From Nereocystis luetkeana (lineage: Eukaryota; Sar; Phaeophyceae; Laminariales; Laminariaceae), in contig JARUPZ010000016.1 in assembly GCA_031213475.1 (NCBI GenBank), forward strand, positions 9,626,270 to 9,690,269: DNA of 64,000 nucleotides, in the 5' to 3' direction. The position numbers and the translations under genes are program-made. This document shows positions 1 through 63,735 of this stretch, one piece after another (positions within the stretch are counted from its first letter, which is position 1; each line of letters begins with the position of its first letter). The notes beneath the pieces were generated by a model. That model was not told where the DNA came from, ran no database searches, and worked only from the letters and a program-made list of their open reading frames with translations.

Positions 1-644
1 ACCCAACGGGCGCGGGGGGGGGGGGGGGGGGGGGAAGCAAAAGTGATGATGTTTTGGGGCGCGGGGGGAGGTGGAGGGGGGGCTCAAGGGTCGTTGACGT
101 TTTTTAGCGGGGGGGGTGGGGGGTTCAAGGTGTGTCGGTGTTTTGTGGCGAGGGGGGGGGGGGGTCTCAAGCGGTGTTGCCGTTTTGTAGCGAGGAGAGG
201 AAGAGCTCAAGGTGTGTTTGGCGTTTTTTTAGTGGGGCGGACGGGGGGGGGGGGGGGGGGGGTACTCGATGTTGTGCATGGTCGTAGTCGTATCACCATA
301 GACCCTCGCGCCCCTACAATGCCGGGACGGAGCACGTCGGGGAAGGGGCTCAAGGTGTGTTTGTCCTTTTGTAGTTCGGAGAATAGAGGGCTCAAGGTGC
401 GTTGGGAGTTCGTAGCGCGCGGGGGGGGGGGAGGGGGGGGGGGAGGTGCCAGAAGATGAAGAGAAAAACGATTGGTGTTTCGATACGTTGAAAGCTTCGA
501 TTCTACAGTATATCCCAACACTATTAGTGTAGTATTCATGCTGTGATCGTTCGTTTCTACAGTATGTAACACTTTTAGTACCAGGTATAATAGTACTCAT
601 GCTTGTGTGTTGTTGGTTCATTTTTTCATTTTGACTGTCTCCAG

Positions 645-719: not shown

Positions 720-3700
720 GTGCGACGGCAGAGCTTCACCATCATGGGAAGCCCACCGCTTCTCCTTTGTAACCCTACCCACAGTACTGTTCCGGCGGTC
801 ATAGCCTAGTTCCTACCATCGTGACAAAGTTGGGTCTTCTTCTCCATAACCCTGTCGGCATTACTGTACCGGTGGTCATGGTCTCATTCGTTGGCGGCAA
901 GCCACAATATTACAGCGTGTCTTTCGGGTTAGTGCAGTGTCGGTCGTTCGTGAACCTGAAGGCCGCCTACGACGCATGGGCGCGGCATCTTGGGACACTC
1001 TTGTATTGCTTCGCCGTCCCTGCTCTCGCTGGGAAGCTATCAATGGCGCGCATCTTACAGATCATGATCTAGATCATCCAGATCATCGATCGCCACTTCA
1101 TGATCTAGATCTGTCAGGGCAGATACGTGCCTGGATCGCACCACTGGATGTGTGGGGGGTTTTGTAGGGTCCACGAGGTATGCTCACCACGTGGGGCCGA
1201 TGTATGATGATACCACCCAGCTTTCAAAGCTGAGCACGGGCGACTCCATCGGTCGATTTCACGGCTGGGGGTGCCTTTGATATTCGTGTTTATAGCTTTT
1301 TTGTAACCGTCCGATCCTCTCTGGCTCTTTCTCTTTCTCTCCCCCCCCCCCCACAAAAGGGTTTCCGGTTTAGCACGTACGCCTCATGGTGGGTGCACCA
1401 GGGGATACACTTGGGCCTCGCGGAGTCCGGGAGGCTCGTCCGGCTCCCCATGAACATGCACACCATGGTGTGCCGGGTGATTCGCTTGCAGTCCAAGTTG
1501 TTGGAGCAGCTGGGGAGGGACCCTACCGCCGACGAGATCGCGATCGCGAGCGGCCTCGGAGTGGAAAAGGTGATGGTCGGGGGTGGCTGGGTGTGCATTG
1601 GCTGTTTTGAGGTCGGGTGCGTGTGATATGTTTGCGGGATTCTCTGTATTTTGTGTCTGGCTTAAAGAGCGTTTTGTGGCTGGACTTTTTGTTTTTTTGG
1701 GTGTTAAGTACAAGACCTGCCGGTAAGTCAGTTAGTTGCCTTGCTACATGAGTTAGTTAGTTGGCACTCAACTAATAACTAGCCTTATCAACGAAGTCCA
1801 GTCAAGGCATGCCTTACGCACAGGCCTACGGTAGTCGGCTTATTCCGCCGCCCAACTACTGGTATAACTAGCCTTGATAACTAGCCTTGCCAATGAAGTC
1901 CAGCTTCAGCCAAGGCATGCCTTAGTCACAGCGCTAGTTGGCTTACTTTAGCCACCCAACTAGTAACTAGCCCTTTTAATGGAGTCCAGCCAAGGCATGC
2001 CTTATCCACAGCGCCTTACCCACAACCCTGGTCGTTGTAGGTTCCACCGATCACGCGCCCGACGTAAAGGTGGCGTTGTCTGCCAAGGACCGTCATTAGC
2101 GACACGGCGCGAAAGGCAAAAACTAAACACCATGTTGACAGGTTTTGTTTTTCAAAAGTATTGAAATACTTGGTAGCACAAAATAATACCTGGTACGTTA
2201 GTTCGTAAATTTTCAAACGAAGGGCGCTATTAGTCCGAAAATACCCAAAATAGATATAGTGCAAGCCGGCGTCCCCGGTGGCTTGGTAGGTGGTCCGCGA
2301 GCCTATCAAGATCAATTTCGTGGGTTCAAGTCTCACCGAGTGCATGCTCGTAGGGGTTTTTTCTTGCATTAAAAAAATGATTAGCGGAAAGCGCGAGAGC
2401 GTGAGTTAGCTACATTCGATGATAATCGACGAGCAGCGGGAATGCTGAACCCTATGCGCGACAAATAATGAAAGGCACGTACCGGGGGGGAGAAGGGCAG
2501 ACACTTGTGACCACGGGCAGACACCTGTGACCATGGCTTGTCCAGAACTTGTGTCGTGGGTAAAACCTCCTACGAGTTAGGCTGGAAAGTAAAAGGGATA
2601 ATTAAAAAACAAAGAACAAAAAGTCGGGTTTTTCATGTTGGGCCATTTTTGCAAGTATTTCTGCTAAAAAAAAAACAATTCGTGTACCTGGTAGATGATA
2701 GCGGCCCTGCGGTAAGCTCCGACCCTTCTCTCGGCCCTGCTAGGTCCAGCGGTATCTGGAGGTGAACAAGGTGGAGCCGATGTCTCTGGACGCTAAAGCG
2801 TGGACAAAGAACTCCAACAACGATAACCACAAAGCCTACAAGGTGGAGGACGCCATCGACACGAAGAGCAATAAGGTGACGGTGATGCAATGAATTATTA
2901 CGGGGGGGGGGGGCATAGTTAACAGGACCAAATATTGTTCGTAAAAATGGTTAAATATATAGGTTTTTTTATGTATACCATAGGTCCTATTAACTATGGT
3001 CCCCCGTAAACCCTCGAGGGGCTTGTGCTCGTGCGCGGAAGGGGGGGGGGGGGGGGGGGGTCGTGGTGATGTGTGCGTGGGCGCGGCTGTGTGCGGGGTG
3101 TACTCATGCCATGCATGGCCGTGGTCGTGTAGTCTGTGTGTGTTGGGGGGGGGGGGGTGTAATCAGCAAGCGTGTGAAGGTTAAGGTGGAGGACCCCATC
3201 GGCATGGAAGAGTAAAAAGGAGAGATTGATCGCCTCGTCGTCGCTGCTGTTCACCGACGAGGAGCTTCAAGAGAGGAAACTCGAGAAAAAATTAGCGACG
3301 ATGATAGCGTAGGCCACACGAAAGCAGCCCCGGCTACTGGGGAAGGGGATGAAAAAACTGGTACCCGCTCTACGATGCAAGGAGTTGAGCAGCACCGCCC
3401 GCGCATGGTACTAGTCGTACGGCTGCGCGCTCGCACAGGAGAGTTGCGAGTGCCGCCATATTGTTTTCTTTGTTGCGATATGTTGGTCCCTGAAAATTGA
3501 AGGAGAGATGCGGGGGGGGTGGCTCGTCCAAACGCATCTTTTCTCGCCAGCGTGGTTTTTGTATGGCGCCCTCTCTTTTTCTTATTTTTTCCCCCGCGGC
3601 CACTTTCCTCGGTGCCGCACTGCCACGGCAGCAATGCCTAATTGGTTGATCGATCATCAAGGCACGAAGTCGTCAGTAGCATGTCTGCACGCGCCTCCCA

Positions 3701-7869: not shown

Positions 7870-9390
7870 CTGCCTCGGCCATGGGCTACTCGACGAAAAA
7901 AATATGCAGGGCTGTATGGACCTAATATTGTACTGTAGGGCCCGCCTACTGCTATACTATTCTACCAGGTATGCACTACACAGGTATTTGGGCTATGATG
8001 GCGCAAGAAAAATGTTTCCGTAGAAACGGTATCGGCAGATTTTAGTCCCGTGATATCATACGAGTAACCCATCATCTATAGATGCAGGTTGCCTCCGGCT
8101 CACAAAATAAACGAACGTCGAACAAACGAACGTTCAACAGACGCGCCGAAACGCAGACCGACCGGGCTGCTGCTGACCCCTGTCCTTAAACGTTTCGGGA
8201 GGCGCTTCCATCCCGGCCGATCACCGCACACAGATGAATGACCGTTACCCCGAAAGACATCAACAAGACCACCCCTGCCCTCAGCACACATCTAATTATT
8301 ACCATCCTGCCCGGAAATGTAAGGACATTTTGGGTAACGATATGAGTGAAAAAACTCGTTATAGTTTCAGACAGACGGGTATATACACCCTAAGCGGAAC
8401 CTCCTCATCCTCCTCCTCCTCCTCCTTCTCCCCCAAACGAAGCCGCGACAAAAGCCACCGGAAAATAGCGGCTTATGCACCTCGGTATCTCGCAGGGCCC
8501 GTCACCAACAAGCATGCTAGGAGCCCGCCTCCATACACTATAACTAGCATGTTACCAGTAAGGCCCAAGGAGGCCTTGATGCACCCGACAATCTCCTTTA
8601 CTGGCTGTACCTACATCAACACGACCCCTCGATGGAGGTGACAAAGTCAAGTTAACTGGTAGCACATACTGCTAGGCCACATGGACCTACTACATATACA
8701 GGCATTGCCACAGACTGATCCCAGAAGACACCTGGTGTGTGATAACAGTCTGGCCGATAATCCCCGTTTGGGCTCTGGTGCGAACATGAAATGCTCATTA
8801 TATTCCCGGCCAGAGTGATATCACATATCAGGCACCAGGTATGCGATTACCGAAGTGCGGTAACGAGACAAAAATCATGGATCACATGCGAAACCGGAGG
8901 GTCCTTTCCCCGCAGTACACGGGACGACGCGCGGGCCAGGGGACGGGCCCAGAGCTATCAATTACATGAGGTACGAACGCGCAAAATATACACATCAGCT
9001 ATCATGCGTGCTGGTACGATACCTTCAACAGGTCTGACGCGTTACATATGCGCGAACACGTGGCGGAACACTAACCGAGACGAGAAACGCATAAACAACC
9101 AACATCAACCAACATATACCAAAAAGGCAACATAAAACAACAAAGGCGAAAACCTTGGCTCTCCGTGAAGACAACTCAATATCAAGCGACACACACACCC
9201 GGACGACACCCACGTCTTCCCCCGCCCCCCTCCCCCCACCCCGACATTCTCCCCCATTACACAAAGCCAAGTCAGCTCCATCTACAACTACGCACAAAGC
9301 CTCCCCCCCCCGCCCCCCACCTCACTGCACGAAACCAATCCAGCCCCATCTACCACGACAACTACTAGGCACCCCCCCCGGTCACCCCCC
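7870..9390. other. Stretch with no recognised feature
   Basis: Only a short CCT run (about 8400-8430), a pyrimidine-rich zone near 9220-9320 and single TACCWGGTA motifs (for example 7962) are visible. No convincing exon or repeat family was found. Confidence 0.4.
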
Positions 9391-11170: not shown

Positions 11171-13390
11171 AATTATAATGAGATATTGTTTCTGCACAGC
11201 AGTGCAGTTCTAAAAGGGTCAACACCGATCTACTGTACCCTTCCTTGTCCCATACCACTCTGGTCGGAATATAAGGACCGATTCGACGGCAATATAACTA
11301 CCAAATGGCCCTTATATTTACGCCCAGAGTGGTGAGTATTGATTGATTACAAGACCTGTGAGTCGGCAGGATTTCACCGGTAAAAAACTCATCGGTAGGT
11401 GCCGTTAGCCAACTAACCGAATTTAGCCGGCAAGTCGGCTGGGCAAGTCAGTCGATGGGCAGCCGACTGATTTGCTGACTTAATTCAGGTGAGCGAACCG
11501 AGCCAAATCAGCCCCACCCATCACCCCCCCGAGCCAAGGGGGTCCTGCCTAAAATTAGGGGAAAACGTATCCAGCATTCAACTATCCTTGCTATTAATAA
11601 AAGTGCGGAACCCGATAAGTCGGATAGTCGGCACCTCAAGGAAACGACTATTAATAGCTTTCTTTCCGGTCAATCACTAGCTGGTAACTTAAGCCGTGCC
11701 GACTCGCTACTCCACCAGGTACGATATCTGGTACTGGTATAAATTAGCGTTTAGGAGGTTTTAGTAGTCAGGTATATATCCGGCGTGCGTGTGATTGGAA
11801 TTCGCGCGGTTGGCGATGGCTGTAAATTTTGTGCTACAAGCACCAGCTGGAACTGCACCTAAATTTTCGGGACAAAGTGTCATTGATAGGAGTAAAACAC
11901 TGGAATCTCCCTGCCGTCGACGCCATTCTAACGTGGGACGTTGTTTTCTAGCTGTGGAAGTGTTACGAACACACTTGGCCTTGGCGGCAAGCGCCTTGGT
12001 TCTCACGCGAAGCACAGGCATCATAGTAACGGGGTGAAATCTACGTGACGTTCTGACCGACAAAACAGGAGACTGACAGGACAGGAGACATAGACAGGAC
12101 AGGACAGAACACAAAAATACAAAAGCGTGAGAGAGAGGAAGACTTCGCACAACCCACGAGAGGCACAACGTCCCGTGGGGAAAAATAAAAGCCCCGCGGG
12201 GGAAGACAACGTCCCGCGAGTACGTAGTATACGGGCTCCCACGAGATAGAGGACGAGTGGAGCGTCCTTCGAGAAGGGCTGAAGCGTTACGAAGGGTTTT
12301 CCTATATTCTGAATAGCCGTGTTGGTTTAGGGGACACGGCATTCACACAACACTACGTATTATTCTACCTAAGCTGCATAAAAATACCGAATTATATTTT
12401 CAAGTAATAACAGCTTGTCCCCAACGATCTCACACGGTGCGTCTTTAAAATTAAATAAAAACACGGGTATATATTATATGCATACTTCGTATTATTAGAC
12501 TATTAAAATAGTAGTGGGTGGTACGTCTCTGAAAATAAAAAAAAAACGCGGGCATATATTATATCAGGTATTCATGTAACGACTCGAAGTTACTATTTGA
12601 AACCGGATCGACCCGTCGTAGGAATGTATGGATACATGAATACTGCTGTGTGTGATGGACACCTGGTGCTGAATACAGAGAAGAACGGACCGAGGACCGA
12701 ACCGCGGATTGGTACCGAACAAACTGTGTGGAGCTCTGAAAACTGAAAGCCACCGACACCGAGCCCCCCAAAAAGAAGGCCTCCGCACCCGACCGAAGCG
12801 AAGGGCCCCACAAGCCAACCACCAACGTTTCGACATTTCGACACATTTTCACCGGGTAGTCCATAGATAGGTGGCCGTGTACGGAATATTATAGCAAGAG
12901 GCGGGGCCATTGAATATTAAAATGACCCTTTCTGCCGGTCTCAGCGACATTTTTTTGCGGTTTGTGGCGTCAGGCGTCAGGGGGAAATCGTGCGGCGGCT
13001 GTGGACCAACACACCAACACGAAATTACTCCATTAACACCACTCGACAGGCTTACCGTGCGTTCATAATGATACATATTTGTACGCCACCAGTGTACTAA
13101 TATCTCCAAGTACGGAGTATAATACCTGTGCTCAGTACATGCAATATCATCAAATGGTTGATGACACTGTTATTCACACAATATATTCTATTCAGCAATA
13201 AATACCTGGTATATATACTACTGCTGTATATAACACAACTAATTCCTGCATGCAGTTCGTTATTTCGGATAATCTAGTGCCGCCGCCGCGGGTCGGCTGC
13301 TTCAACATGACAATACATAAAAAGGGTCAGCATGGAAAAGGATGTGAGACTTCTGCTAAGGTCTTAGTTTCCAAGAACCCCCCCCCCCCC
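11170..13390. other. Stretch with no recognised gene
   Basis: AT-rich in 12350-12560, with a short (ACAGG)-like run at about 12060-12110. A 193-codon minus frame at 11761-12342 has no recognisable domain and a biased composition. Poly-C run at 13379-13395. Confidence 0.4.
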
Positions 13391-13960: not shown

Positions 13961-14165
13961 TATTACGGGGGACTGTTAAGGTCTTAGTCCGTAGGGCTAA
14001 AGGTAAAAGGTTAACCAATCGCCTACCCAATCTAAGCCGCATAACAGGACCATAGTAAATACCAGGTAGGACCCACGGTATACACGAAAACCTAAATATT
14101 TTCCTATTTTTACTACAGTAAAAATATTTGGTCCTACCAGGTATTTACTATGGTCCCCCGTAATA
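13961..14165. mobile_element. Fold-back MITE family 1, interrupted by family 3
   Basis: Left arm tattacgggggac stops at 13973 and resumes with gaccatagtaaat at 14048; the 73-bp insert is a family 3 element. Both arms carry a TACCAGGTA (14060-14068 and 14135-14143) absent from most copies. Confidence 0.85.
13974..14046. mobile_element. Mini fold-back family 3 (73 bp)
   Basis: Ends TGTTAAGG..CTTAG and CTAAG..CATAACA are imperfect inverted repeats. Flanked by GGAC on both sides (13970-13973, 14047-14050), a likely target duplication, inside a family 1 MITE. Confidence 0.75.
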
Positions 14166-14822: not shown

Positions 14823-17230
14823 AGCATAACACTTCAACTTGGTGTGCGGTCGTGGGAACAGGAAGCGGCTTGTTACACACAACAGGCAACAACAACGACA
14901 ACAACAACAACAACGACAAAATTTACCTGGTACCAGGTACCAGGTACCGAGAGGTACTTATTAGTGCTGCTGTAGCATGATACGAATGCGTCATGTCACA
15001 GAAAAGCGGTACTAGGCACCAGATTATACCTGGTATTCCATACCATATGTGTACCAGTTTCACCTGTTTTTTAGCGGTACCAGGCACCAGATTATACCTC
15101 TGGTATCCCACACCGCGAGTACCAGTTTTACCAGTTTAGGGTGTAACGCGGCGCAAACTACAAGGCACTCGTTTACATACCCTCAATTTCGTATCTAGTG
15201 GCTTCATAAGCACACCCTGCACCACACACTCGCAAGAGAGGGAATCGTCGAACTTGAAAAAAAATATCAAAAATTAAAAAAAAAAATAATGTAAACATAT
15301 TTTGGAAAAAATCTTGCTCTCTTTGTTCGAAGAATTAATTTTTTGACGCGGTAACACAGGGGTGGACTCCAATAGGACCGAGGTCGCTTCTGACTACCCG
15401 ATGGAGACACGTCAGATGGTTGTCAGGTTGCCTCTCTCTCACCCTCCCTCGGCCGGCTATCTGCAGCAGCTCTGGCAACCCCACCGCCCACCACCTCACA
15501 CCCCGGTTCGGCAGTTATTGCTTCTCCATGTATGTGTGTATACAGCAACAGCAGCAGCAGGAAAATCGCAAACGAATTAATACACTACTGGTGCTGCTTG
15601 TAAAATACCTGGTATGCGTACCGCTGATGTTGTGTTCTGTGTGTATCCGCGTTCGTTCGTGCGTAGTCAAACTCTGTCACCAGAGTATATACAGCAGCTG
15701 CTGTTGCTGCTGCATCATCGTGCAGCAGCAGCAGTTGAGAGCTGAGAGAGAAGCGAAGCAAATGTCCTCAGTCTTCATCAACGGCCTCTTCTCTCTCTCT
15801 CTCTCTCTCTGACTTTCATGGCAACAACGCCAGCGCTCATACGAGTATGATACCCCTGATCTGGAAGGAAATACCTCGTGGATCTTAACTCTTAACTCAG
15901 TACATTGCCAGGAACACACGTAGGCAAAAACGTTGCGCGTATGTACACAAATAATACGTGTTGGTTGGTTGTGTCCACATCTACTCTACGAATGAGTACG
16001 ATGGAAGCAAAATATTTTTGAAAAAAGTGATCCAAAAAAAAACTGTCACACCAACGAACAGAACATCAGCAGCAGCAACAGAAGCAGCAGCAGCAGCAGC
16101 AGCAGCAAAAGTGAGTCTAGCACAAAGTGATGCAACACTGCGTCTCTGGATCTAGCGCCAACGACTACAGCACCCAACACAGGCGGCTTGACTGCCCTCC
16201 GCCCCTCCCTCTCGCCGCGTCGTGCCTCTCGGACACGGGCACGAGCAACCCTCGCCGAAACGAGCACTCACACACTCACCTCGAAGTCTGTGCGTTTTAT
16301 CTTCAACCTTGCCCACGAGCCTCTCAAAAGTCCTGAATCTCTCTCACACAGGGCGGCTGTCTTGCGTGTAATCCGTGGAAATGACAATCTCCTCCCTGGA
16401 GCTCGTTGCTGTAGTCGCTGGATTGGTGATCGTTTCTGGCTGCAACTTGGTTGCGAGGACGGCCGGGGCAGTGGATGGTTGCGGGGTGCTGTCAGCTTGG
16501 CGGAGTAGGGAGGGGGGAGGCGAATGTGAGCCCAGCGAAAAGTCGAAAGTTCGAGTGTGTTTGACCGACGATCGAATCGGAAAACGCGGCGGGATCAGGG
16601 GATGTCGGGATGTGTGGGATGTGGGACGTGTGACGTCAAAATATGTCATTATTATGATGTGATAGACGGGCTATATTTGACCCATCACTTGACCCGTCAA
16701 AAGAGTCTCCAGACCTACCTACGGTATTATACTATACCCTGTCATTTATAATAGTGATATACCCTGGTATTTTTGTATTCCCTTGACAGCGGCTGTCCGT
16801 CAAGCGGGGAAGGTACCGTCAACTATGACGTCTTTCTTCGTGGGACGTGGTGGTAAACTGTGGCCGAAGTTTGACATCTTGACTGACCGGCCCCCTACGT
16901 ATTTGTACTAGAAATAAAACTATCTAGAGGGCACACATACGAGTACGATAGGCCTTGACGCATCCATATACAATTAGAGCTGCTCATCATGCGAGATGCG
17001 AGACATATACGGTAGAACAGTGTACAAAAGATGAAGAATGCCAAAGCGAATTGCATGTGTGTGGTATGGTACGTAGCTCAACAACTTTGGTTTCGGGCTG
17101 TTGTTGTTGTTGTTGTCGTTGCCTGTAACAGACTTGTTCTTCATGTTGCTACCAGTACTCCGCTATTATTATTACTGCTGTAGCAGCAGTGTTGCTGTTG
17201 ATATAAAAACAGTATAATAATAGTATCAAT
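14823..17230. other. Repeat-rich stretch without recognised gene
   Basis: Triple overlapping TACCWGGTA at 14926-14948, (CT)n at 15788-15811, (AGC)n at about 16080-16108, and TTG and TAT short runs near 17100-17170. A frame at 16375 (MTISSLELVAVVAGLVIVSG) begins with a hydrophobic signal-like segment but has no family support or clear donor. Confidence 0.4.
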
Positions 17231-17242
17231 AGTACCTGGTAT

Positions 17243-18089: not shown

Positions 18090-19270
18090 CCTCCTACCTG
18101 GTGCTACTACGTAGATCTACAGTATCTACGGTACTACGGTTGTATATAGTGGAATTGTACCAGGTACCTGGTACTCGTACCCGTACGTCATACGTGCGAG
18201 TATCTTGTGTCCTATCGATCATATCTTCTGCTGCTAGCAGCTGCTGGCGGTGCCTGCCTACAACTGCTGCCTGTGCTGTATCCACTATCCAAAGCATTAT
18301 GATTAATAATAATAGTAGTTTAGATGCGTCGCATTTTTCTCCATGATACGTACCACTGCTTGTTGTAGCAGCAATAGACATACACATACATACGTGCCTG
18401 GTGCGCTACACGCGGGACGTCAACTACCTACCTGTGGGTTTTTCATTTTTCGCGTTCTTATGTGCATCGGCACATAATAGCATACCAGGTAGAATGCAAC
18501 AAATAAGTGAGAGCACCGTGCCCGCTGGGGCAACGTGCCAGGTTCAGTCATTTCAGAGAAAAATACTTGCAGACTCTGCGACAAACTCAACTAATTATAG
18601 GGTAAAATAATCAGCGAAACAAACGCATTTTTTATTGTTGAAGAAGACCGGCAGTTGGCATGTACATTGTACTGGTCCAGGTGGTGGTGGTGCAGTAGAA
18701 TCTAGAAGCATATTTCTATATACATACGCATACGTCATGATCGGTCACACCATCAACAACACCTCTGAGCAAAGAATAGGCTTGAATGCTCATCGTTTAA
18801 ATAACAACAGCTATGCGATCGAGGACTTTTCGTATTAATGCCACACCAGCACCTCGAGCAACCTTGAGCATAACATTAGATAGGCTATCATATCGTTCGT
18901 TCTGTCTGTGGGATGTGGGATACATACAGAAGTGTGGCGCTCGTCGTTGAAACGAAACAAAATATATTATTAATAGAACAAAAGCTCAACACGATTTCTT
19001 AATCTGAATTTCACAACGTCCCCGAAAACAGGTTTAAATTACTACAGTATTAATAGTTGTTTATCTTTCGTGGACCTATCTGTGCTACATAATACGTGCA
19101 CGTACTTGTGTTTGGTTGCTCTGTTCAGGCTCAGCCGCTCCGTAGAGCAAGAGCTATCCCACTTGGATAATGCCGTTCCGGCGTCTTCCACCCGGCGATG
19201 GGCCTGCGATGCCCCAGTCCCCCCACACGAAATGAACGGGGGTGACATCATGGGGGTTAGCGACGGAGGG
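18090..19270. other. Stretch with no recognised feature
   Basis: Overlapping TACCAGGTACCTGGTA near 18157 and single TACCAGGTA at about 18482; otherwise no repeat family or exon is visible. Confidence 0.35.
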
Positions 19271-23450: not shown

Positions 23451-23819
23451 AAACTCTACTGCTTCTACTATTAATACTCATGTGGGGTGGGGCGTAGCAG
23501 GCACCAGGTATATTGCTGTTGTGTACCAGGTAAGCAACACCCCGAGGTATACTGCAATCAAGCAACGAAGGGTCCACAGGAAACCTTGAGGGAAAACAAA
23601 ATTACCCCGAAAGGAAGTATCGGTGATATCTTCCAACATCTACTATAGTACACTACACCTGGTATGTATTAATATGCCCGATACATCTTCAGAACATGTA
23701 TTAATAGTACATTTTACACGCATATATATACGTGTGTCACATACTTAAGAGTGCAAGGATAAGAGTTTCGACGAAAGTTTCGACGTCACAGCTGGTTGTT
23801 CAATGCTCACTATTCATAG

Positions 23820-24303: not shown

Positions 24304-24440
24304 TTATTATGACGGGGGGACATTCATTGTAACTAGGACCAAACATTGTTAGTAAGAGGAGGAGGTAAATATATACCAGGTAGGTTTTTGTCTGTACCAT
24401 AGATAGGTCCTAGAGTATTTACTAGGGTCCCCCGGAATAG
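24304..24440. mobile_element. Fold-back MITE family 1 with a TACCAGGTA insertion
   Basis: Where other copies read aaatatatagg, this one reads aaatataTACCAGGTAgg (24374-24382). Lies just behind the SINE tail. Confidence 0.8.
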
Positions 24441-24459
24441 TACCTTTTCTGTTGAGGCT

Positions 24460-25240: not shown

Positions 25241-25930
25241 AAACCAATCTTTCTACCCGTCAACATCCATCACAACCAGTGTAATTTCCCGAGAGGGGAG
25301 CTGACAAGCTGACCACCTCTTCGAGAAAATGGTTGAGGGTCATTGCTGTGTACGGGACGAATAAGAGCCTAACCCGAAGGCTGAAGTTACCGGACCCAAT
25401 CAACCATTGGTTTGGTTATTATGAGCGCCTTCGTCTTGTACACAGTCTGCGCCAACCATTTGTTTCTTGGACGAGTTGTGAGCTCTACTGTTTGCCGGGG
25501 CACCCACGGGGAGAGAGCTAAGGTCTACACGTTGCAAAAATGATGAAAAAAGAAGTTGTTAATAGTACAAGAAAGAGCTGAACACATGTTAGATTTGAAC
25601 GCCCATTACAAGTATGTAGTAACAACCTAGACGTACGGCACGTTGTAGAAAAGGAAAGTACAAAGTTAGAGCTCGCGTGCCGCCCGACCGGCTGAACTTC
25701 CGTTTCTGCACCCAGGGCGCCGTTTTACCGAACGGGTTCAGCTTCGTTTTGACCCCTAGAAAGCCCATTGGATTGGTCGGCGGGTTGTTGAGCGTACCTG
25801 GTACGGCACACTCCTTCTCGGACTTGATTTTTGGATGAGATACGTTCTACTATAGAGGAAGCCAGTAGCACCATTTTTTGTGCCCCGCCTTTCTTCACAT
25901 GGGGGGGGGCTCCATTCTATGAACTATTAA
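25241..25930. other. Stretch with no recognised feature
   Basis: A 62-codon plus frame at 25333-25521 is open but unsupported. TACCTGGTA at about 25796. Confidence 0.3.
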
Positions 25931-27462: not shown

Positions 27463-28028
27463 CCCCCCCCTATTTTAAATATAGGTTGGGTTGGCGACGG
27501 TTGGCAACGACACTGTAAAACATGCCGCTCACTACGTGAGCTAGACAACCAGGGTACCGATTTTTCTTGTTCTTCTTTTTTGGCGGTCACCCACAGCTGG
27601 TTGTCGAGTTAGATCATTTGTGCGAGGTAAAGAACCTTTACTCCGCACAAGTGGGAATTATCGTATCACGTACCAAGTAGTGTTCAAGATAAGGCACCCA
27701 AGAGGCAGTTACATAGTACTCTCATTGCTGTCTCTGGAAATGCGTACACCGGAAATTAAAGCAACTTATTGAAGATGTCATCCATATGCAAGTCCGCCTC
27801 TCAAGCGGTTCTTAGTAGGATGCAGCTCATCCTTCATGCGACTCGCCGGACACCTCACGGTGGTTCGCGCTTGGTGCAAGCAATGTCTGTCTGGTCGGTG
27901 AAAACCCGACATGCTCCGTTCCGGCATTGTAGGGATGCGAGGGTCTACGGTCATACGACTACGGCCATGCATGAGATCGAGTACATCTCTCCTATCGAGT
28001 ATACCCCCCCCCCCCCCCCCCCCCCCCC
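27463..28028 (+). mobile_element. Poly(C)-end element, long copy A
   Basis: Runs from a C-run plus tattttaaatataggttggg to the terminal C-run (28004-28029). Contains gtccgcctctcaagcggttc, ggtgcaagcaatgtctg, gaaaacccgacatgctccg and gtagggatgcgagggtc. Sits head-to-tail with copy B, sharing the C-run between them. Carries the variant scar TACCAAGTA at 27671. Confidence 0.8.
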
Positions 28029-28568
28029 CGCCGTCCCTATGTATTTTGGGTAGGTTGGGTTGGCTCGGTTGGCAACGGCTACGTAAAACATGCCGCTGAC
28101 TACGTGAGCCAGACAAGCCGGGTGCCGTGTTTTTGTTTTTTGTTGGCGGTCGGTTACAGCTGGCGAGCGAGTTTTCCAAAAATTGTGCTCGGTGGAGAAC
28201 CTCTACTCCGTACAAGGGAACTGAACGTATCATGTACCAGGTAGTGTTGGTGGTGAAACACCCACGAGGCAGTTACATAGTAATCCCATTGCTGTCTCTG
28301 GAACTGGTCGCGCCGGATATTAAATTGACCCATTGAAGCTGTCGTCCACATGCAAGTCCGCCTCACAGGCGGTTCTTAGTAGGATGCAGCCCACCCTTCA
28401 TGCGACTCGCCGAACACCTCACGGCGCTTCGCGCTCGGTGCAAACACTGTCTGCCTGGTCGGTGAAAAACCCGACGTGCTCCGTCCCGGCGTTGTAGGGA
28501 CGCCAGGGTCTCATGGCCATACGACTACGCCCATGCATGGCATCAATCAAGTACACCCCCCCCCCCCC
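28003..28568 (+). mobile_element. Poly(C)-end element, long copy B
   Basis: From the shared C-run through tattttgggtaggttggg to a terminal C-run at 28556-28568. Carries TACCAGGTA at 28235-28243 where copies at 29941 and 37192 have a plain TA. Confidence 0.8.
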
Positions 28569-30140: not shown

Positions 30141-30412
30141 CATCGTGTAAGGAGGGACTGGATGTGTTGAAGGGGGAGATGAGGCAAATAGACGAATGTG
30201 AACATGGAGAAGTTTGGTACCAGGTACACTAGATAGTAGCGAGAAAACGATCGCTATCCTACGGGGTAGATGGCGGACACAGGCGGCGAAACAGGAAAGG
30301 GACTAGTCTGGGAAAAATACATAGTGATGAACGCCCAGATATTGGAGGTGTCTCTATCAGGAGCAGGAACGGTGCTCCGTCTTGAAAGGGATGCCTGAGC
30401 AGTAATGGTCGA

Positions 30413-46068
<15,656 letters not shown>

Positions 46069-47852: not shown

Positions 47853-50800
47853 CTGGGCGGGTAAAATGCGAAAAGAGGGCGAGAGCATCCAAGGAACGCT
47901 ATCTGTTAGGGTCCTTCTTTACGAAAAATAAATGCTCACTACTGCAGTCGCGAGGAACAAAAAACTCATATTTTCGCCAATCGTGAAACCGGCACGTCTC
48001 AAGTCACGAAATCGTGACAATAAAAAGTCACTTAAAACATCAGGAAATGCTGATATCTCCCTGTCAGCTGCCCCATGGATACGTTGTGCTCTGGACGGGC
48101 ACAATATGGAAAGGGCCAAGCGAGGGTGTGGGCCTGGAGAATTGCGTTTGCCCGGATTTTTTAGTCGGTGACGGTCTAAGCCGGCCTTGAGCCTCTCGTG
48201 TACTCCGTTTGTTTCGTTCATTTTGGTCCTTTCCCGAGGGCTGTTATCTTACAACAATCCAAAGAAAAACCCGCGGTACCAACGATTTCAATGCAAGAGC
48301 CGGGTGGAGGGTGACACGCAAGCCTCGACAAGGACAAATGGCCACACCACCAGATGGAAACTTCCAACAGCAACAACAACAAACAACGAACAACGAACAA
48401 ACAACAACACCGTCAACACAAACGCCAACCACCACGAACAACGAAAAAACCATCACCGCCGTCTCTCGGAACAAAAAACGAAACGCTCGGTTGCACAAAC
48501 ACTTCACACGACGGACAGATCATGACCTATCTTATCTATCTACAGATAGATCATCTAGACCCTAGCCGGCTGCAATGACGTAACAGGTACCTACTGTAGT
48601 ACAGATCCAACCCAGGAAACCTGTACGGCAGTAGACAATGAACATTATACCGCTCCCATGCGGCAAAACATGAGCTAGATCATACAGATCATGCAGATCA
48701 GGGATCTATATATCTGCCCTGAACTACAGTAGTGCCTATGGGTATACGTCATGGGACTGGTAATCGATGTTCTATTCTGTCCTGAGGAGCGGAACAGTTC
48801 ACAAGATAACCACACCAAGCAAGAACCACTTTACCCCAGCAGCGGCGTGTCGGGGTAAAAGACAACAGCCCCGGTGTGTTTGTTTCGCCCGCGACAGCAG
48901 TACTAATGCGGTGGAACACATCTATTTTGATAGTAATGACAACCAAGCACATAAATGGGGGGGAGTCCATCGTGGGTTCTAACTACGACCACTCTGCGTG
49001 TGAACATAAGGAGTGTTTACACGTTAATCTGAAGACGAATCGACCGTTATACTTCCATCCAGACCCCCGTAAGATAGCGGTGGCCTTCCCGAACAAAGGC
49101 CAATAAGAGCAGACTAACCTGGATGCAGATAGAAAGTTCTGAGATCATGCTTCCGGCGTTCGGGCCCACCACGGTGGCTCCCAAAATCTTGCCCCCCGAG
49201 TTTTTCTGCACGGTGATCTTGGCGAAACCCTGGGTGATGCCCTCGCACTTGCAGCGGTCGACTTCCGCCATTTGGCGCTGACGGTTACATTCGGATGAAG
49301 TGACGGTTACATTTATTTAGATGAAGCGACGGTTGCGTTTATTTATGGATGAAGTGACGGTTACATCTATTTAGATGAAGTGACGGTCACATATATTTAT
49401 GGATGAAGTGACCGTTGCGTTTATTTATGGATGAAGTGACGGTTACATTTATTTAGATGAAGTGACGGTTACATATATTTAGATGAAGTGACGGTTGCGT
49501 TTATCTATGGATGAGGTGACGGTTATATATATTTATGGATGAAGTGACGGTTACATATATTTATGGATGAAGTGGCCGTTGCGTTTATTTATGGATGAAG
49601 TGACGTTTACATTTATTTAGATGAGGTGACGGTTACATTTATTTATGGATGAAGTGACGGTTACATTTATTTAGATGAAGTGACGGTTGCGTTTGTCTAT
49701 GAATGAAGTGACGGTTACATATATTTATGGATGAGGTGGCCGTTACGTTTGTGGTAATATAAGGGCATGAAACGACGGTTAGATGTATAGATGAAACCAC
49801 GACCACATTTCGATACATATAACGATGGTTGCATCTTGAACCTATAGTGAAGATGCCACATCTACTTTCAACGATGACTGTCGCATACCAGGCGCCTGGT
49901 ATACATTAGAAGACGGCAATATCTCGACCGCCCAAAGACCGACCGTGATGGATAGGCTAAAAAAAAGCAAATCATTTTTTTCGCCCACAAAAACAAGCAC
50001 ACACGTTTATCGCAATCTTGAGAGCAAGAAAAAAAAAACACCCTTGCACACAGCCTTACCAGCGCACAACAACAAAAAAAGCCAACAAAAAATCGTCATC
50101 TGACACACCAAAACCCCTCCCTCAGTCCTTCCCGCTGCCTACAAATGTGAACGCACTTTGAAAAAAAATCTCACCATGTAAGACTCGAACTCCACCCCCG
50201 CTTGCGTGAGCTCGGCCTCGTATTTGCCCACGTGCGCCACCTCGGGCTCGGTGTAAGTGCACCACGGGATGAGGAGGTCGGACTCCTTGTTCTTGTCGCC
50301 TAGGAACATGTTCCTGATCGCCACGCGCGCCTAGGACACGCCAACAACGATGACGGTAACGCCGAAAACCCGTGGATTATCGTCACAACCCCGGCCACAG
50401 CGGAAGGTTGGGTTTGCTATCACGGGGGGCCATCGTTAATAGTTAATAGGACCTATGGTAATACATAAAAAACCTACCCTGGTATAAATTTAACCATTTT
50501 TACCAACAATATTTGGTCCTACCCTGGTATTAACTATGGTCCCCCGTAATAGTGTACATAGAGGAGGGCGATCGAAGACAGGAGTAGGCTTTGTACTGAT
50601 GACGCGAGAGGGGCTACTGACAGCGCAATAGAAGGGAAAAATCAGCTCAGCAGACTCGCGCAGCAAAGGGGCGATCCATCGAGCAGTTGGCTGGGACATG
50701 GGAACAATCGCAGCCGAAGCTCAAGCTTACAGTAACAGAGGGCGATCACCGCGACACACTGCGTACAGCTCAACAACCAGCGATCGCTTGCGGTAGAGTA

Positions 50801-51150: not shown

Positions 51151-54100
51151 GGGGGGCGTTCTCATTTGTTGCTGGCGTTGGTCGTGTGACCATTGACCGG
51201 TCATCCCTTTCGAGACGGAGCACAGAGGCGGAAAAGGCGATGCGCAAGTAAGACAAGTAACAAGGTACCGGCACCTGGTACATACACTATGTGGCGGGTA
51301 ATAAACAGTACCTGGTACAGCAGTAGTATTCAAAACCAAACATGGGGTGAAAACACAGGGGGATGCCTGGTTTTAGGGTCCATCGTGGGAGTCTGATTAC
51401 AACATTTAGCCCCCCTTGTAATATTGCAGCAGTCTTTTTTCCCTCTAGGGACGATCGAGGGAGTAACCTTACGTACGCAAAATTCTAATTTTCCAAGGGA
51501 CGATAAGGAGGTCTGCCGTAAATGCCACACCAGCCACGTTTCATACCGGCAATTTTATTTCATTTTTCAATCCTCCTCCATCCCTTTTACTAGCTTCGTC
51601 CTTCTTCTTCTCTCTCCCTCCTATTACGGGGGGCTATAGTTAATAGGACCAAACATTGTTAGTAACATGGTTAAATAGATAGGTTTTTATGTATACCAAA
51701 GGTCCTATTAACTATGGTCCCCCGTAATAGTCGCTCCTTGCATGGTATTTAACTTGAGCAGACTCACGTAACCCCCATCGATTTAGGGGATAAAAAAAAG
51801 GCGAACCCGCTGTATAGATCGGACCATCTCCGAGACGCAGCATTAAGGGCAAGCGTAGGTCAAGTACCCTCCATGACCCATACCACCTCTACAGAGGCCG
51901 CACCGCCTGAATGACGCACGCACATCGCAAAGGAGTACATGCCGTCATCCGACATTTTCCCTTCCGTTTCATTGAAAAAGAAAAGAAAAAGAGACCAAAG
52001 TGATGGGACGGGGGAGGCGTTCTACGATAGAGATTCACCCTAATTTTTCTGAGGCTCCTCACGTGAGGAGCTCCATGCCATTATTAAGTCACCCGAAAAA
52101 TGGCTCCAGTAACAATCAAATTGCACCCCGATGAATAAATCCCATGGCCGAAGTATGCAAAAGCGTCATTTTTCGAAACAATATTGGCATTCGCGCGATT
52201 TTTGTTTTGGGGTTAAGGGTCCCCGTCATTCAGAAACCATTTTAGCGGAAATGTGTTACCTCTATCGTAGAACGCGTCGGGGCCAGCCAATCGGAATCCC
52301 CTATAGGCCGGTCGTGCCACCTCTGTGGCCCACGCCACAACATGGCCTGCCCACAGGCTCCAGGCTCCACAAAACGCCTGCCACTGTTGTAGCTCCACGA
52401 TACCCCTACTTGTAACGACGCGCACCGCACTGTTACGTGGGACCATAGTAAAATAGGACCAAATATTGTTCGTAAAAATGGGGAATATATAGGTTTTTGT
52501 GTGTACCGTAGGTCCTATTTACTACGGTCCCCCGCACTACAGGTACACATGCCTGCAAGCGTGGCGGCGATTTGGGTATTTGCTTGCTTCGCTTGCGTTC
52601 GACAACCAACCAAGCGGTGGGACGGGACCAATCAACCGACAAAACCAACCGATCCCGCAACAAGCAGTCACGGATGCCACCGCCATCGCCCTCCACCTCG
52701 TCGGTGAAAACCCGACGCTCCGTCTCGGCATTGTGGAGATGCGAGGGTCCATGATCGTACGACTGTACGGCTATGCATGACATGAGTGCACCCCCCCACC
52801 ACCACCACATTTTCAGTTTATCTTTCATCCTCCGGCGGATTGGCTAGGCTTAACGCTCAAGCTCACCGCACTTCCACATCTAAAACATGCGTCACGTATC
52901 AATATATAAAAACGTCGCTAACACCCCCCCCCCCCCCCCCCCCGCCCCACCATCCACCACCGCCACCTCCTCACCTGAAGTAGTCGTCGATGACCACCCC
53001 CTGTCGGTTGTTGTAGTCCACGCCGGCCTCTTCCAGGCCCACTCCGAACACGTTAGGGACGCGGCCGGTAGCGTTGAGGAGGCAGTCACACTCGTACACC
53101 TCCTCCTCTGCCGGAAGGGAACGGCACAAGACCGCCACCACACGAAAAATCAGCCACATAGCGCAAGGAGTGAGAAACGACCGAATAAAAACGTACCAGG
53201 GTGCCAGGTGAGGCTCACGTTCGAGGGACATCGCCAAGATACTTGTATCAAAAGCATCGTGTTCCGTATACCGTGGCTGCCTCGGAGAATAGAGCTTGAA
53301 GGGAGGCGCGACACGGATACAGCAGCACAGAGCACAAAAAAAAAAAGAAGCTGAAAAAAAAAATCAAGAGTCCATGTGCCTTGCTCTGCGCGGCTCGGCA
53401 GGGCGGAACGCAATCCCTCAAAAGTCAGAGCCAGCTCGCGCGACTTTGAGCGCCCAGAGCATGGACCCCAGAGCTCGTCCAGGAACCTACAGTAGGCGTG
53501 CTTCGTAGCCGAAAACAAAAGCGCGAGAAAAAAAAGACCAGCGCCCACCGGAGAAAGAGCCTTGCAAAACGTGCGAAGAAACAACTTATCACACATTTAC
53601 CTATCATGTACTGTACCACTTTGGCCCGGAATATAGTATCCATTCGTGGTGTGGCATGAACATAAGACAGATCTTATATTATCGGTCAGAGCGGTACCCC
53701 TCACCCACGAAATAGAAGGCCCGTTTCGATTGAATACCACGGTACAGCTATAGAAGAGGCCCTTATTTTGTTAAAGGGGAGGGGGGGACAAGAGCGGGGG
53801 TCGGCGGTCTCACCCCCGTTTTTGTCTAGGATGACCCGGTAGGCCTTAAAGGGGGCCTTGAACTGTTCCCCTCCCTCATCGCACTCCACACGCTTGATGC
53901 GGGCACCTGGACACAGCACATATTAGGATGGCGTTGGGGGGGGGGGGGGGGCGTACTCATTATCGTGCATGGCCGTAGTCGTATGACCATAGACCATCGC
54001 ATCCCTACAATGCCGGGACGGAGACCCTCGCATCCTTTCAATGCCGGGACGGAGACCCTCGCATCCTTTCAATGCCGGGACGGAGACCCTCGCATCCCTA

Positions 54101-57100
54101 CAACACCGGGACGGAGACCCTCGCATCCCTACAAGGCCGGAGCGGAGCACGTCGGGTTTACAGTAGGTTGAACTCGATGCGTTGTTGACGCTGAAAAACA
54201 AGGTCCATGGTTACACAGCGCAACTATGAAATGACAAGTACGTACAAGCTTCCGCTTCGGGACTTTGGTTCCATGACTTCAAACCCCGGGGGGTGTCGCA
54301 AACTGAAAAGGGACAACACGATCAGGCTATGTTCGTTCCTCGTACCAGGTACGATCGTACTCGTAGTATATACTCCGCATTCGTTTTAACAGTGCAGTGT
54401 ACATGTACCTACATTTGACTCTAATTCCAAGTGAAATGTCCCCACAACGGGGCTGCCGTAGTAATAAAAGGCTATTAAAAGGGTCAAGAGAAACACCGAT
54501 TCAAGAGAGCTTAGTGTGCCACAAAAGGGACGGCGACAGCAACAGCAACCAATATCTCCCCAACACACAAAAAAAGATGCTCTACCAGGAAAACCGCAAG
54601 CAAGAAAAACAAACCAAACTTAAAGCAGTCTGATCCTCCTCTTCGCTCCTCCAGCTAGAATACATTCTGTACCAATCCGCAAAAGGGGAGGCGGACAGCA
54701 ACAGCAGCAACACTCCCGATCAAGCAAAAAAGGCGTAAACGCAAGCAAGCGTGAGGAACCAAACCGAAACTAAACCAACCTAGTCTGATCTCCAGCCCGT
54801 CCTCGAGCAGAGCCTTTTCGAGGCACTTGGCGGCGTCCGGGTCCTCCCTAGGCAGAAGCTGGTCGGCGTACTCGAAGCAAGTCACCTGAGCCGATAACAA
54901 CCAGAAGTAACGACCAACTTGCGATTACTAACAACCAAGGAAACGACCAACTTCGTTCAGCGTGCGATTATTTACAACTAAAAGTCAACAACCAGAGCAA
55001 CTATATACCTGATTAATAGCAACAGCCAGGGTTACAACCAGCTTCGTTGAGCGAATGAATAACAACCAGAGGAACAACCAACGCTACAACTATCTTCTTT
55101 CAGCGTGCGGTTATTAGCAACCAGACCAAGAACCAAAACAGAAACGAACTTCGTTCAGGGTGCGATTATTAACAAACAGAGGAACAGCCAGAGGAACAAC
55201 CGTTTAGGACCCCAGGCTCTACATATAGCGCCCGAAACACACCGGAAGCGCGGTCATGGCACGAACGCGCAGCACTAGAAGTAGCACGACGCTGCATGCG
55301 TGTCGTTAACGGCTAACCTTACCGTTACCGGCTAACGCCAACGATCACAGCTACATGAACATGAAACAGTAACGCCCTTGAACACCCGACAGTCGCCGTA
55401 GTACCCACCTTGCACCCAAAGCGCTGCATGGCCTGAGACATCTCTAACCCGATGGGCCCGGCGCCGATCACGCCCATGCGAGGCGGCAGCTCCTCCAAGT
55501 TCCAGAAGTTGGAGTTGGTAATATGAGGCATGTCCTTCAGCCCAGTCACGGGAGGGATGGACGCCGAAGCGCCGGTTGCCACCATCGCCTGCGCACAAGA
55601 TTACCAAAGGTGACTTAAAGACGGACGTTGTGGAAGCGTTTGGGATCGAGATGTGCCACCTAGACTAGGGGGTGGGGGTGGGGTACACTCAAGTCATGCT
55701 CGTATGACCATAGACCCTCGCATCCCTACAATGCCGGGATGGAGCACGTGGGGTTTTCACCGACCAGGCTTGCATATTGCTTGTTAGCACCAACCGCGAA
55801 GCGCCGTGAGGTGTTTCGGCGAGTTGCATTAAGGGTGAGCTGAATGCTTATACGTGAAAACCGCTCGTGAGGCGGGTTTCGGCACCTTGGGCGCATTTTC
55901 TTGCATAAGCAGGAGGCTGCGCATTTGCTGCTTGCCTTAGTTATTTGACCATTGACCACGCCTCCCTTCGAGACGCAGCAACGCCTCTACTCCTAATAGA
56001 GACACTTCCAACAACTGGGCGCTCGTTACGTTTTTCCATACAATGCATAGAACCTTTTCGCTTAACTTATCCCTTTCGAGACGGAGCGGGGAGAGGTATC
56101 CTAAAACTACGGCGAGAAAAAAACAAGCAAACGAACAAAAACAGGGGTGTTAATTATTACTTTTAATAATTCGTACAGAAACTCCCTCCCATCCCGATTA
56201 CTGAGTTTCCGTATTCGGACTCGGAGAAGGGAGAGCGATATCGTTCCCCTCTTCTGTTCTGTCGGGGCACCCAACCCAGCCTCACCTTATCGAACTTGAG
56301 CGTCTTTCCGGCAACCTCCACGGTGTCGGCCGACGTGAACACTCCCCGGCCCAGGAATATGTGTTTTACGAAGTCTCGCGAGTAACGGGCGACGGAGTCG
56401 TGCTTTACGTTTTGAGGGGACGGGGGACGGGCAGCGGGAGAAGAAGCAGCAACCGCAAAATCATGGACATAAGTTGAGACGTGGCGCTTTTGTGTACAAG
56501 AAACTCGGCCTTGGGGGACTTGAACATCTCACAGCTGTAGAAGAGCAGGTCAGGGCAGTACCTTGCACGGCACACGAGTCAGCGAGAGACAATCAAAAGC
56601 GGCAATCGTAATAACACAAAAAATGATCAAAATACAAACTCGAGATAACAAAGTAAAACTAGAACACCTCGTGAGAAACGCGAAAAAAAGAACTAGCCAA
56701 AAAAGCAAACGAACAGCTTATCAAAAAGGAAAACACCTTTCGTGAAAACCCGAAAGAGAAGAGATAAAAAAAAAAGTCAATCAGTAGAAACACACCTCTC
56801 GCAAGAAATGCGATGAGCAAAAATAGTGTAGTGAGAAAAAGAAAAGCGCCTCGGAGAAGCCTGCCTCACCCACCCACACACTCACGAACTCACGAACTCA
56901 TTAACTCACCTCCGAGATGTCCGAGCGTATCCGGCGCATCCTCCTCATGACCTTGCCGAAGTCCACGGTCACCTCCCCCGGAATTTCCACTCCGAATTCC
57001 GCAGAGGTCTTGACCTCGTGCAGCCTGGTCGCGCACGCAATGAGCGCCTACTCGACACAAATTGTACACAGACGTGGGGTGGGTGGGGGAGGGGGTACTC

Positions 57101-58531: not shown

Positions 58532-58756
58532 GCGCTATTACGGGGGGCCATAGTTAATAGGACCTATAGTATACACAAAAACCTACTGGTATATGTTCAA
58601 CTATTTTGACTAAAAATATTTGGTGCTACTACGGGGGGCCATAGTTAACAGGATCAAATATTGTTAGTAAAAATGGATAAACATATAGGTTTTTATGTAT
58701 ACCATAGGTCCTGTTAACTATGGCCCCCCGTAATAGTACCTACGGTCCCCCGTAAT
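58532..58756. mobile_element. Fold-back MITE family 1 inside another copy
   Basis: Outer copy 58532-58627 is cut near its right arm by a complete inner copy (58628-58736); the outer terminus cctacggtcccccgtaata follows at 58738-58756. TACTGGTA at 58584 in the outer copy. Confidence 0.75.
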
Positions 58757-62764: not shown

Positions 62765-63640
62765 GCTGGGGATTGCCTCCGAAAACAGTGCCGATCAATT
62801 CTTGAAAAATATTGCCCGAAAAAGGGCAATCTTGATATTTTCGGCAATCTTGGCGAAGGGAAATCTTGATATTTTCGGCAATCTTGGCGAAAAGAGGCAA
62901 TCTCAATCTCGATCTCAATCTTGATCTTCAGTGCGCCAAATTTCAAGGTATTTTGATGTTTTACACGCGTGGTTTCTGAATATTCTACGACATGTATGCT
63001 GCTGTATGCTCAAAATGCACCAGCTCCTATTTCGGCAACAATATAGATCACTATTGCTACTACTACTGTAGGAGTGCACGAGTCGCATTATGCATCCTCA
63101 GTATTTCACGGAAAGGTGTACAGCAGGGTGTAGCGTTTCATCTGAACAACAAGCAGTAGACATCAAAAAAAAATTGACAACAAGGTATCAGTACCAGTAT
63201 CAAATATAAACCCTGGAGGAGCCCAAGAGCGCAAGGCGCACACGTACCAGAACACCACCCACGGCGCAGCTTCTGGCATAATATCTAGTGCACAACAACA
63301 AGCGCTAATCGTTACAGCAAGGGAGCATATAAACATATACCTGGTACCAGGTATCCATACATCTGCATGAGGGTGCCTGGGCACAGCTGGTTTTTGTGGG
63401 CGTAGAGCAGGGGAGATAGGCGAAGATATGCGTTTTCAAGGGGTTTCCAGTGATATAGTCAGGCGTTGTTTGAGCGAGATCCGAAATATTGAGATTGGAA
63501 GATTGAATCAACCAATCTTCGATTCTCAATCTAGATTGAAAGATCGGCCGTCAAAACCGCCAATTCAATCTCGAGATTTTCCAAAAGATTTCGATTTTTT
63601 CAGGGCAATTCAATCCCAATCCCCCATCACTGATTAATAC
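62765..63640. other. Stretch with no recognised gene
   Basis: Contains a tatttncggcaatcttggcg repeat near 62810-62900 and (AATC/TCTCAATC) runs at 62895-62925 and 63530-63625. Overlapping TACCTGGTACCAGGTA near 63337. Confidence 0.4.
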
Positions 63641-63642
63641 CT

Positions 63643-63735
63643 GGTAGGATGGAAGAACCGACACGGGCACTGGTTGTGCTGGATGTAGACGGGTAGAAAG
63701 AACGGAGTAATGTAAGAAAACATACACACGCTGCT
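63643..63735 (+). mobile_element. LINE 3' end
   Basis: ggatggaagaaccgacacgg, ggttgtgctggatgtagacg, gtaatgtaagaaaacatacacac. Confidence 0.7.

Follow-up and report, generated by a model that had tools for sequence, protein, structure and literature searches.

A TA-flanked palindrome of the Nereocystis luetkeana genome as the probable excision scar of a cut-and-paste DNA transposon

The 9-bp palindrome TACCWGGTA (TACCAGGTA or TACCTGGTA, W being the central base) is highly repeated in the genome of Nereocystis luetkeana and, judging from sequence comparisons, is probably what a TA-inserting DNA transposon of the cut-and-paste type leaves behind on excision. The analysis was centred on a 64-kb stretch of the assembly (C16:9626270-9690269, hereafter the window), for which an earlier note had proposed about 40 copies of the motif, left at TA sites by a Tc1/mariner-like element.

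Abundance of the motif and its gain at TA sites

Exactly 40 copies of TACCWGGTA were counted in the window, versus 0.65 expected from 100 dinucleotide shuffles (maximum 4), and the 13 example coordinates of the earlier note were correct within two bases (581 is in fact 579, 7962 is 7963, 13204 is 13203, and 63637 is 63638). These copies form 34 runs, five of which are tandem (Table 1). In the window and the next 200 kb taken together (hereafter the 264 kb), 143 copies were found versus a single one of the reversed word, and the genome-wide count that the note had called for showed the same excess, with 182,395 copies versus 1,744 of the reversed word in the assembly of 465,085,209 bp, or about one copy per 2.5 kb. 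The 9-mer observation is confirmed. Among the 16 palindromic classes of the form TA-xyWy'x'-TA, CCWGG ranks first in the 264 kb with its 143 copies (2.57 expected), followed by GGWCC, whose 36 copies we attribute to the arm of a MITE-like family (see below). The central base of the core is A or T in 143 cases and C or G in five.

The before/after pairs described for repeat families proved to be real when paralogs were aligned at five scars. At 14060, the empty length was exact in all 19 aligned stretches, with the TA itself retained in 12; the corresponding values were 19 of 22 (TA retained in 13) at 14135, 15 of 19 (14) at 24374, 16 of 22 (15) at 33635, and 14 of 19 (13) at 38275, the remaining stretches being filled, one to two bases off, or variants, and the counts including cross-matches between the two MITE arms. 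The net change put forward, from TA to TA-CCWGG-TA, was seen as a gain relative to paralogous sites that hold TA only, and the variant cores CCAAGG, CCCTGG and CTGG occupy the same TAs (Table 1).

The MITE-like family is about 115 bp long with long inverted arms (CTATTACGGGGGACCATAGTTAATAGGACC); 23 copies were aligned in the window and 73 in the 264 kb, and exact empty arms with the word CCATAGTTAATAGGACC number 21,233 genome-wide. Most copies have TA at places where others have TACCWGGTA, and three places are affected: site B, a TA of the loop, which is filled in five of the 23 window copies with variants included, the right arm (three copies) and the left arm (one copy). Of the 73 copies of the 264 kb, 56 could be read at site B, 40 in the right arm and 38 in the left arm (17, 33 and 35 being unreadable), and 6, 3 and 1 of these, respectively, are filled. 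When the comparison of occupied and empty MITE sites suggested in the note was made genome-wide for site B with identical flanks, 5,640 empty and 501 CCWGG-filled places were obtained (8.2%); the fill of an average TA is about 0.7% by our arithmetic, which uses the genome motif count and the 15,163 TAs of the 264 kb. Among 100 filled site-B places listed, CCAGG was found in 59 and CCTGG in 41 when read in the direction of the MITE (hand count), and the subtypes TATAT-A and TATAT-G of the MITE were both represented. Given that both centres and both subtypes occur among them, most of the fills appear to be independent gains rather than one inherited state. The five fills among the 23 window copies require five changes on a poorly resolved tree (20 inner branches, one well supported and 11 open), in which the row of the copy at 14035 is misaligned with its scar letters included; we lean more on the mixed centres and the two subtypes among the genome-wide fills. 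In another, non-MITE repeat, the scars at 28235 and 32432 and the point variant at 27671 occupy one position and probably share descent.

Small inserts that distinguish diverged repeats were also surveyed without reference to the motif. Among the window paralogs, 24 of 115 inserts turned TA into TA-X-TA, with X most frequently CCWGG (7) and CCAAG, CCAAGG, CCCTGG and CTGG found once each; some of the other 91 inserts are alternative alignments of the same ones. The 264 kb gave 62 such inserts out of 663, again with CCWGG the most frequent (10) and CCAGGG and CAG found three times each, and among inserts of length at least 5, TA was the most frequent duplicated dinucleotide (37 versus 23 for the next). 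Since other short X are present in these surveys, some TA inserts belong outside the CCWGG family.

Table 1. Scars, tandem scar units and variant scars located in the window
Feature	Position	Strand	Basis
Scar TACCAGGTA	579..587	.	exact match
Scar TACCTGGTA	2187..2195	.	exact match
Scar TACCTGGTA	2685..2693	.	exact match
Scar TACCAGGTA	7963..7971	.	exact match
Scar TACCTGGTA	13203..13211	.	exact match
Scar TACCAGGTA, left arm of MITE copy; relatives TA	14060..14068	.	exact match, paralog alignment
Scar TACCAGGTA, right arm of the MITE copy also holding 14060	14135..14143	.	exact match, paralog alignment
Three scar units in tandem	14924..14946	.	exact match
Scar TACCTGGTA	15027..15035	.	exact match
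Scar TACCTGGTA	15606..15614	.	exact match
Scar TACCTGGTA	17233..17241	.	exact match
Two scar units in tandem	18158..18173	.	exact match
Scar TACCAGGTA	18483..18491	.	exact match
Scar TACCAGGTA	23524..23532	.	exact match
Scar at MITE site B (element strand ACC-TA-TATATTT)	24374..24382	.	exact match, paralog alignment
Scar TACCTGGTA	25795..25803	.	exact match
TACCAAGTA, scar point variant; repeat position as 28235, 32432	27671..27679	.	paralog alignment
Scar TACCAGGTA, dispersed repeat; copies aligned at 29995, 37133 TA only	28235..28243	.	exact match, paralog alignment
Scar TACCAGGTA	30218..30226	.	exact match
Scar TACCAGGTA, repeat and position as 28235	32432..32440	.	exact match, paralog alignment
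Variant scar TACCAAGGTA (CCAAGG), MITE right arm	33590..33599	.	paralog alignment
Scar TACCTGGTA, MITE site B	33635..33643	.	exact match, paralog alignment
Scar TACCTGGTA	33922..33930	.	exact match
Two scar units in tandem	34325..34340	.	exact match
Scar TACCTGGTA	34389..34397	.	exact match
Scar TACCAGGTA	34514..34522	.	exact match
Scar TACCTGGTA	36693..36701	.	exact match
Scar TACCAGGTA, MITE site B	38275..38283	.	exact match, paralog alignment
Scar TACCTGGTA	39396..39404	.	exact match
Scar TACCAGGTA, dispersed repeat; absent in 5 aligned relatives, TA kept in 2	40928..40936	.	exact match, paralog alignment
Scar TACCAGGTA	41579..41587	.	exact match
Two scar units in tandem	44555..44570	.	exact match
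Variant scar TACCCTGGTA (CCCTGG), MITE site B	50475..50484	.	MITE alignment
Variant scar TACCCTGGTA (CCCTGG), MITE right arm	50520..50529	.	paralog alignment
Scar TACCTGGTA	51309..51317	.	exact match
Scar TACCAGGTA	54343..54351	.	exact match
Variant scar TACTGGTA (CTGG), MITE site B	58584..58591	.	paralog alignment
Two scar units in tandem	63338..63353	.	exact match
Scar TACCTGGTA	63638..63646	.	exact match

Target preference and the cores that carry it

When both flanks of 124 runs were pooled and compared with all TAs, T was depleted at position -1 (0.28x, chi2 40.6), A was enriched at -6 (1.81x, chi2 59.0), A and T were favoured at -7 (chi2 73.6), and T was enriched at -8 (1.56x, chi2 30.2). 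The left and right flanks agree, and the preference is symmetric, of the form TWA-N5-TA-N5-TWA. A matrix derived from 98 single non-MITE scars and cross-validated on the rejoined empty sites placed these at a mean percentile of 0.811, with 46 of the 98 in the top tenth, and a second one, built from 75 scars that all lie outside the window, placed the 34 window runs at a mean percentile of 0.827 (null 0.500, sd 0.049), 16 of them in the top tenth. An extended symmetric target preference of the transposase type is present and is reproduced on unseen sites. This palindromic preference is evidence beyond the case made in the earlier note and points to an integrating TA-specific recombinase, of which it would be the expected mark. 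Using a matrix without MITE or tandem marks, site B came first among the 17 TAs scored in the MITE consensus (99.9th percentile), so that scars recur at the best-scoring TA of the MITE, and the arm sites were placed at percentiles 93.7 (left) and 85.7 (right). Against the scar reading, three further MITE TAs, at percentiles 98.2, 97.2 and 97.0, have no CCWGG in the 23 window copies. An example of a poor-scoring MITE TA is CCATAGT-TA-ATAGGACC.

The flanks of other cores were compared in the same terms, with MITE copies excluded. The preference is carried by CCAGGG/CCCTGG (4 of 6 sites in the top tenth), TACCSGGTA (2 of 5), CCAG/CTGG (8 of 30) and CACCWGGTA/TACCWGGTG (13 of 31). It is nearly absent from CCNNGG cores besides CCAGGG/CCCTGG (2 of 9, which is 6 of 15 minus the CCAGGG/CCCTGG sites), and absent from CG (9 of 145), CCA/TGG (7 of 88), CCG (4 of 77), CTC (3 of 29) and CCGG (1 of 9). 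CAG-type sites, which we relate below to pogo-like elements, differ from the CCWGG scars in lacking the target preference as well (12 of 113, mean percentile 0.56). The flank test thus sets the CCWGG family apart from other TA-X-TA words. A three-base scar, CCA/TGG, is disfavoured, its flanks being without the target signature; the core has five bases, with minor forms of four and six. Among one-base changes of the motif, the one most in excess is that of an outer TA to CA/TG (CACCWGGTA/TACCWGGTG), with 31 cases versus 5.0 expected in the 264 kb, about sixfold, and this excess of outer T to C scars is unpredicted by the excision model.

Search for the parent element and its transposase

The earlier note had stated that no parent element lies in the window, and our scan of TA-bounded inverted ends agrees with this, as no CCWGG element was found there among the best 40 of 59 pairs. 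The wider search that it had proposed, for elements of the form TA-CC...GG-TA, came back empty as well in the window, the 264 kb and 12 to 14 further loci. In the 264 kb, 387 pairs of TA-bounded inverted ends held no CCWGG element among the CC-starting pairs listed; the 264 kb plus 12 loci held no TA-bounded CCWGG element; and well-scoring half-sites next to TACCWGG without the second TA, in the 264 kb plus 14 loci, revealed no element among the best 45 of 121. These scans cover about 0.3 Mb of the 465 Mb; what they returned were decayed scars, MITEs already known and inverted repeats of other kinds. A trap for site B (CATAAAAACCTACCWGGV with a non-scar continuation) had 101 matches, and the 20 that were fetched were all short scars or variants. 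Since cut-and-paste leaves one scar per hop, few element copies suffice, and the rarity of the parent is no contradiction; a low-copy parent may lie elsewhere in the genome.

One candidate was rejected. A CCTGGG-ended inverted pair at 135358-138093 of the joined 264 kb, 2.7 kb apart, is internal to a longer repeat, because the flank outside the TA is common to all five copies of the end word that were found. The dispersed repeat word concerned, TACCCTACCTGGG(G/T)TATG, has flanks conserved on both sides and lies at about 124.8, 125.9 and 135.4 kb of the 264 kb and in two further loci (L013 and L056); it mimics the end of a TA-CCTGGG transposon while being internal.

Regarding the transposase, profile searches were run on six-frame translations, without introns and for the best candidates only. 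DDE_3 (PF13358) had no match, while 3 of the 14 controls were positive; Transposase_1 (PF01359) had none here and was also silent in all controls, so that its negative carries no weight. For the Tc1/mariner-like excision proposed in the note, the gain from TA to scar and the excess therefore stand, while neither a TA-CCWGG...CCWGG-TA element in the sequence scanned nor a Tc1/mariner transposase in the family searches was recovered. The DDE_1 profile had 28 matches in the genome, and none of the 10 loci fetched has CCWGG ends. A single one of these 10 has clear terminal inverted repeats, a pogo-like element of about 2.6 kb (L056, about 2551-5162) that is flanked by TA and has ends CAGTGGGG, with 26-bp identical inverted ends TA-CAGTGGGGGGCCC; another locus (L054) has the same left-end sequence. 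This pogo-like element is TA-flanked too, and the over-represented TA-CAG-TA matches its ends: TACAGTA/TACTGTA, the scar expected of it, occurs 121 times versus 39 in the 264 kb. As a positive control this is weak, because other three-base words are also in excess (CCA 112 versus 38, CCG 98 versus 38). In the MITE copy at 14035-14170, TACAGTA is found at 14114-14120 where relatives have TA, and it is possibly a scar of a pogo-like family with CAG ends.

Proposed mechanism, alternatives and known systems

The constant letters between two TAs make the two ends of an excised element their simplest source, and the self-complementary core with its free A/T centre is as expected if two identical 3' overhangs of 5 nt annealed with one mismatch. 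From the scars, we infer an intermediate element, its end sequence, its overhang length, DDE chemistry and a family affiliation. The element would insert at TA, which would be duplicated on both sides, and would have ends 5'-CCAGG...CCTGG-3' or CCTGG...CCAGG. At excision, the cut in the non-transferred strand would lie some five (or four) bases inwards of either end, giving 3' overhangs that would anneal except for one A.A (or T.T) mismatch at the centre, and its repair to A or T would produce TA-CCAGG-TA or TA-CCTGG-TA. The rarer CCAG and CCAGGG would come about via trimming or extra fill-in, and a 5-base core could also result from a shorter overhang with fill-in. The scars would then be inherited and eroded by point mutation, and the TAs on either side of an old scar, which look like a good target because each has a second TA 7 bp away, would take up new insertions that help to build tandem runs. 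Beside the 143 perfect copies, the 264 kb contain 113 one-mismatch derivatives versus 52.7 expected, an excess by which the scars seem to be inherited and decaying. That derivatives are few, and that MITE copies differ more among themselves, suggests that the scars are younger than those copies.

A stagger of 4-5 nt exceeds the 2-3 nt known for Tc1/mariner and would be a new variant. We tentatively consider, as a possibility that falls somewhat short of an even chance, a TA-targeting transposase lineage beyond the 2-3-nt range that cuts 4-5 nt inside its ends and whose scars vastly outnumber its elements. If this is true, the approximately 180,000 scars are a readable log of past transposition, including re-insertion into the element's own scars. 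To our knowledge, transposon excision has mostly been studied in assays or at single loci, and this genome offers that number of candidate scars with both mismatch outcomes, a graded series of repair variants and, in one MITE, matched empty sites by the thousand, so that the choice of target, the length of the overhang, the result of repair and re-insertion become measurable from sequence alone. It also poses the puzzle of which element left the scars and where it is at present.

The target preference would look identical if an endonuclease or a domesticated transposase cut specifically at TA and repair added CCWGG as a short templated filler, with no element involved, and the absence of a parent from the sequence scanned would be accounted for. 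We nevertheless regard such cutting as unlikely, given that only a donor end supplies a constant CCWGG plus a duplicated TA, and that the minor cores CCAG and CCAGGG, which share the flank signature, as well as the three successive units at one MITE site-B copy (L052), read as repeated end-remnants.

Tandem runs bear on a second alternative, slippage or satellite growth of the 7-bp unit TACCWGG. Runs of two to three units do exist, and the tandem form TACCWGGTACCWGGTA occurs 15,917 times genome-wide versus 2. Among 59 doublets listed for the + strand, those with the same base at both centres are in excess (AA 23, TT 17, AT 14 and TA 5, by hand count); in the 264 kb, the doublet centres are AA in six, TT in six, AT in four and TA in three. 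The rate predicted by the matrix is 4.09 for TAs adjoining a scar versus 1.12 for all TAs, because a scar places TA at -7/-6. By our arithmetic, this accounts for about 3.7-fold of a tandem excess of about 13-fold, and thus local re-insertion or slippage must contribute, and slippage may explain part of the excess. As the source of the motif, however, slippage is very improbable: 107 of the 124 runs in the 264 kb are single units, the centre base often differs between adjacent units, and slippage cannot produce single insertions at TA. The tandem word was also found in nine viral contigs, eight without further units and one, a 2.3-kb piece, with one more; there was no sign of a scar-rich genome in these contigs, and neither the MITE arm word nor a relative of the reverse transcriptase described below.

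An odd palindrome with constant letters and a very high copy number could also be a conserved functional palindrome, the binding site of a regulatory or chromosomal protein; this is hardly credible here, since the motif is gained in one piece, by insertion of 7 bp into TAs of MITEs and of further repeats, and its indel variants keep the flanking TAs, unlike a site arising by substitution. For annotators, this is a warning that an over-represented short palindrome need not be a binding site. Programmed DNA elimination, with germline segments lost at TAs in the sequenced cells, would suit about one mark per 2.5 kb with no element seen, but is scarcely conceivable, as the excess of one-mismatch derivatives (113 versus 53) and the scar common to the repeat copies at 28235 and 32432 make the marks look old and germline-inherited.

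Excision of a TA-inserting element, which remains our preferred reading, can be compared with known systems. Tc1/mariner footprints are similar in the TA target, the TA duplication and the few terminal bases between two TAs, and insertion at TA with a TA on both sides is what was found here. Unlike those footprints of 2-3 bases, the core here has five bases and the scars are very numerous. The Sleeping Beauty footprint, reportedly TACAGTA/TACTGTA, would be the 3-base analogue of TACC(A/T)GGTA, and the ends of Mos1 are said to begin with CCAGG. Sleeping Beauty is described as cutting three bases inside its ends, with 3-nt overhangs and a footprint identical to the 3' overhang (PMC7827188); staggers of two to three nt are given in transposon papers (PMC2170065, PMC4505599), and Mos1 cleavage leads to a 3-base overhang (PMC4505599). 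The word CCAGG does not occur in the latter paper. Mariner elements of the Mos1 type also have a TA target, but their 3-base overhang is unlike the 4-5 nt that we propose. Plant Stowaway MITEs target TA and leave short relics of their ends after excision (PMC3660474, PMC4561436), and the copy number of grass MITEs is high (PMC1925063); in plants, however, the elements themselves are seen, whereas here only scars are. In Ectocarpus, Mariner-Tc1 elements are reported as 17 families with almost 12,000 copies, diverse and mostly non-autonomous (PMC12477816), and the words footprint and excision do not occur in the main text of that paper. Among open-licence papers, none was found that combines TACCAGGTA or TACCTGGTA with a transposon, and no title or abstract on footprints, mariner or algal genomes showed a comparable scar density.

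A few other features of the window were recorded. The MITE copy at 24307-24443 contains the further inserts TAGATA and TAGAGTA at 24400-24417, which are two other kinds of TA-X-TA. An open frame at 59804-61819 (-), 671 aa long, encodes a LINE-type reverse transcriptase (RVT_1) and is 82% identical to a protein from a short JGI contig, and the named relatives among 120 of 893 listed are from Ectocarpus (49 and 52%) and from a bacterial MAG fragment (77%). Finally, the relatives of an open frame at 4149-4913 (+) carry sigma-70 region 4 (PF04545), and this frame is probably an exon of a nuclear gene for a plastid sigma factor.
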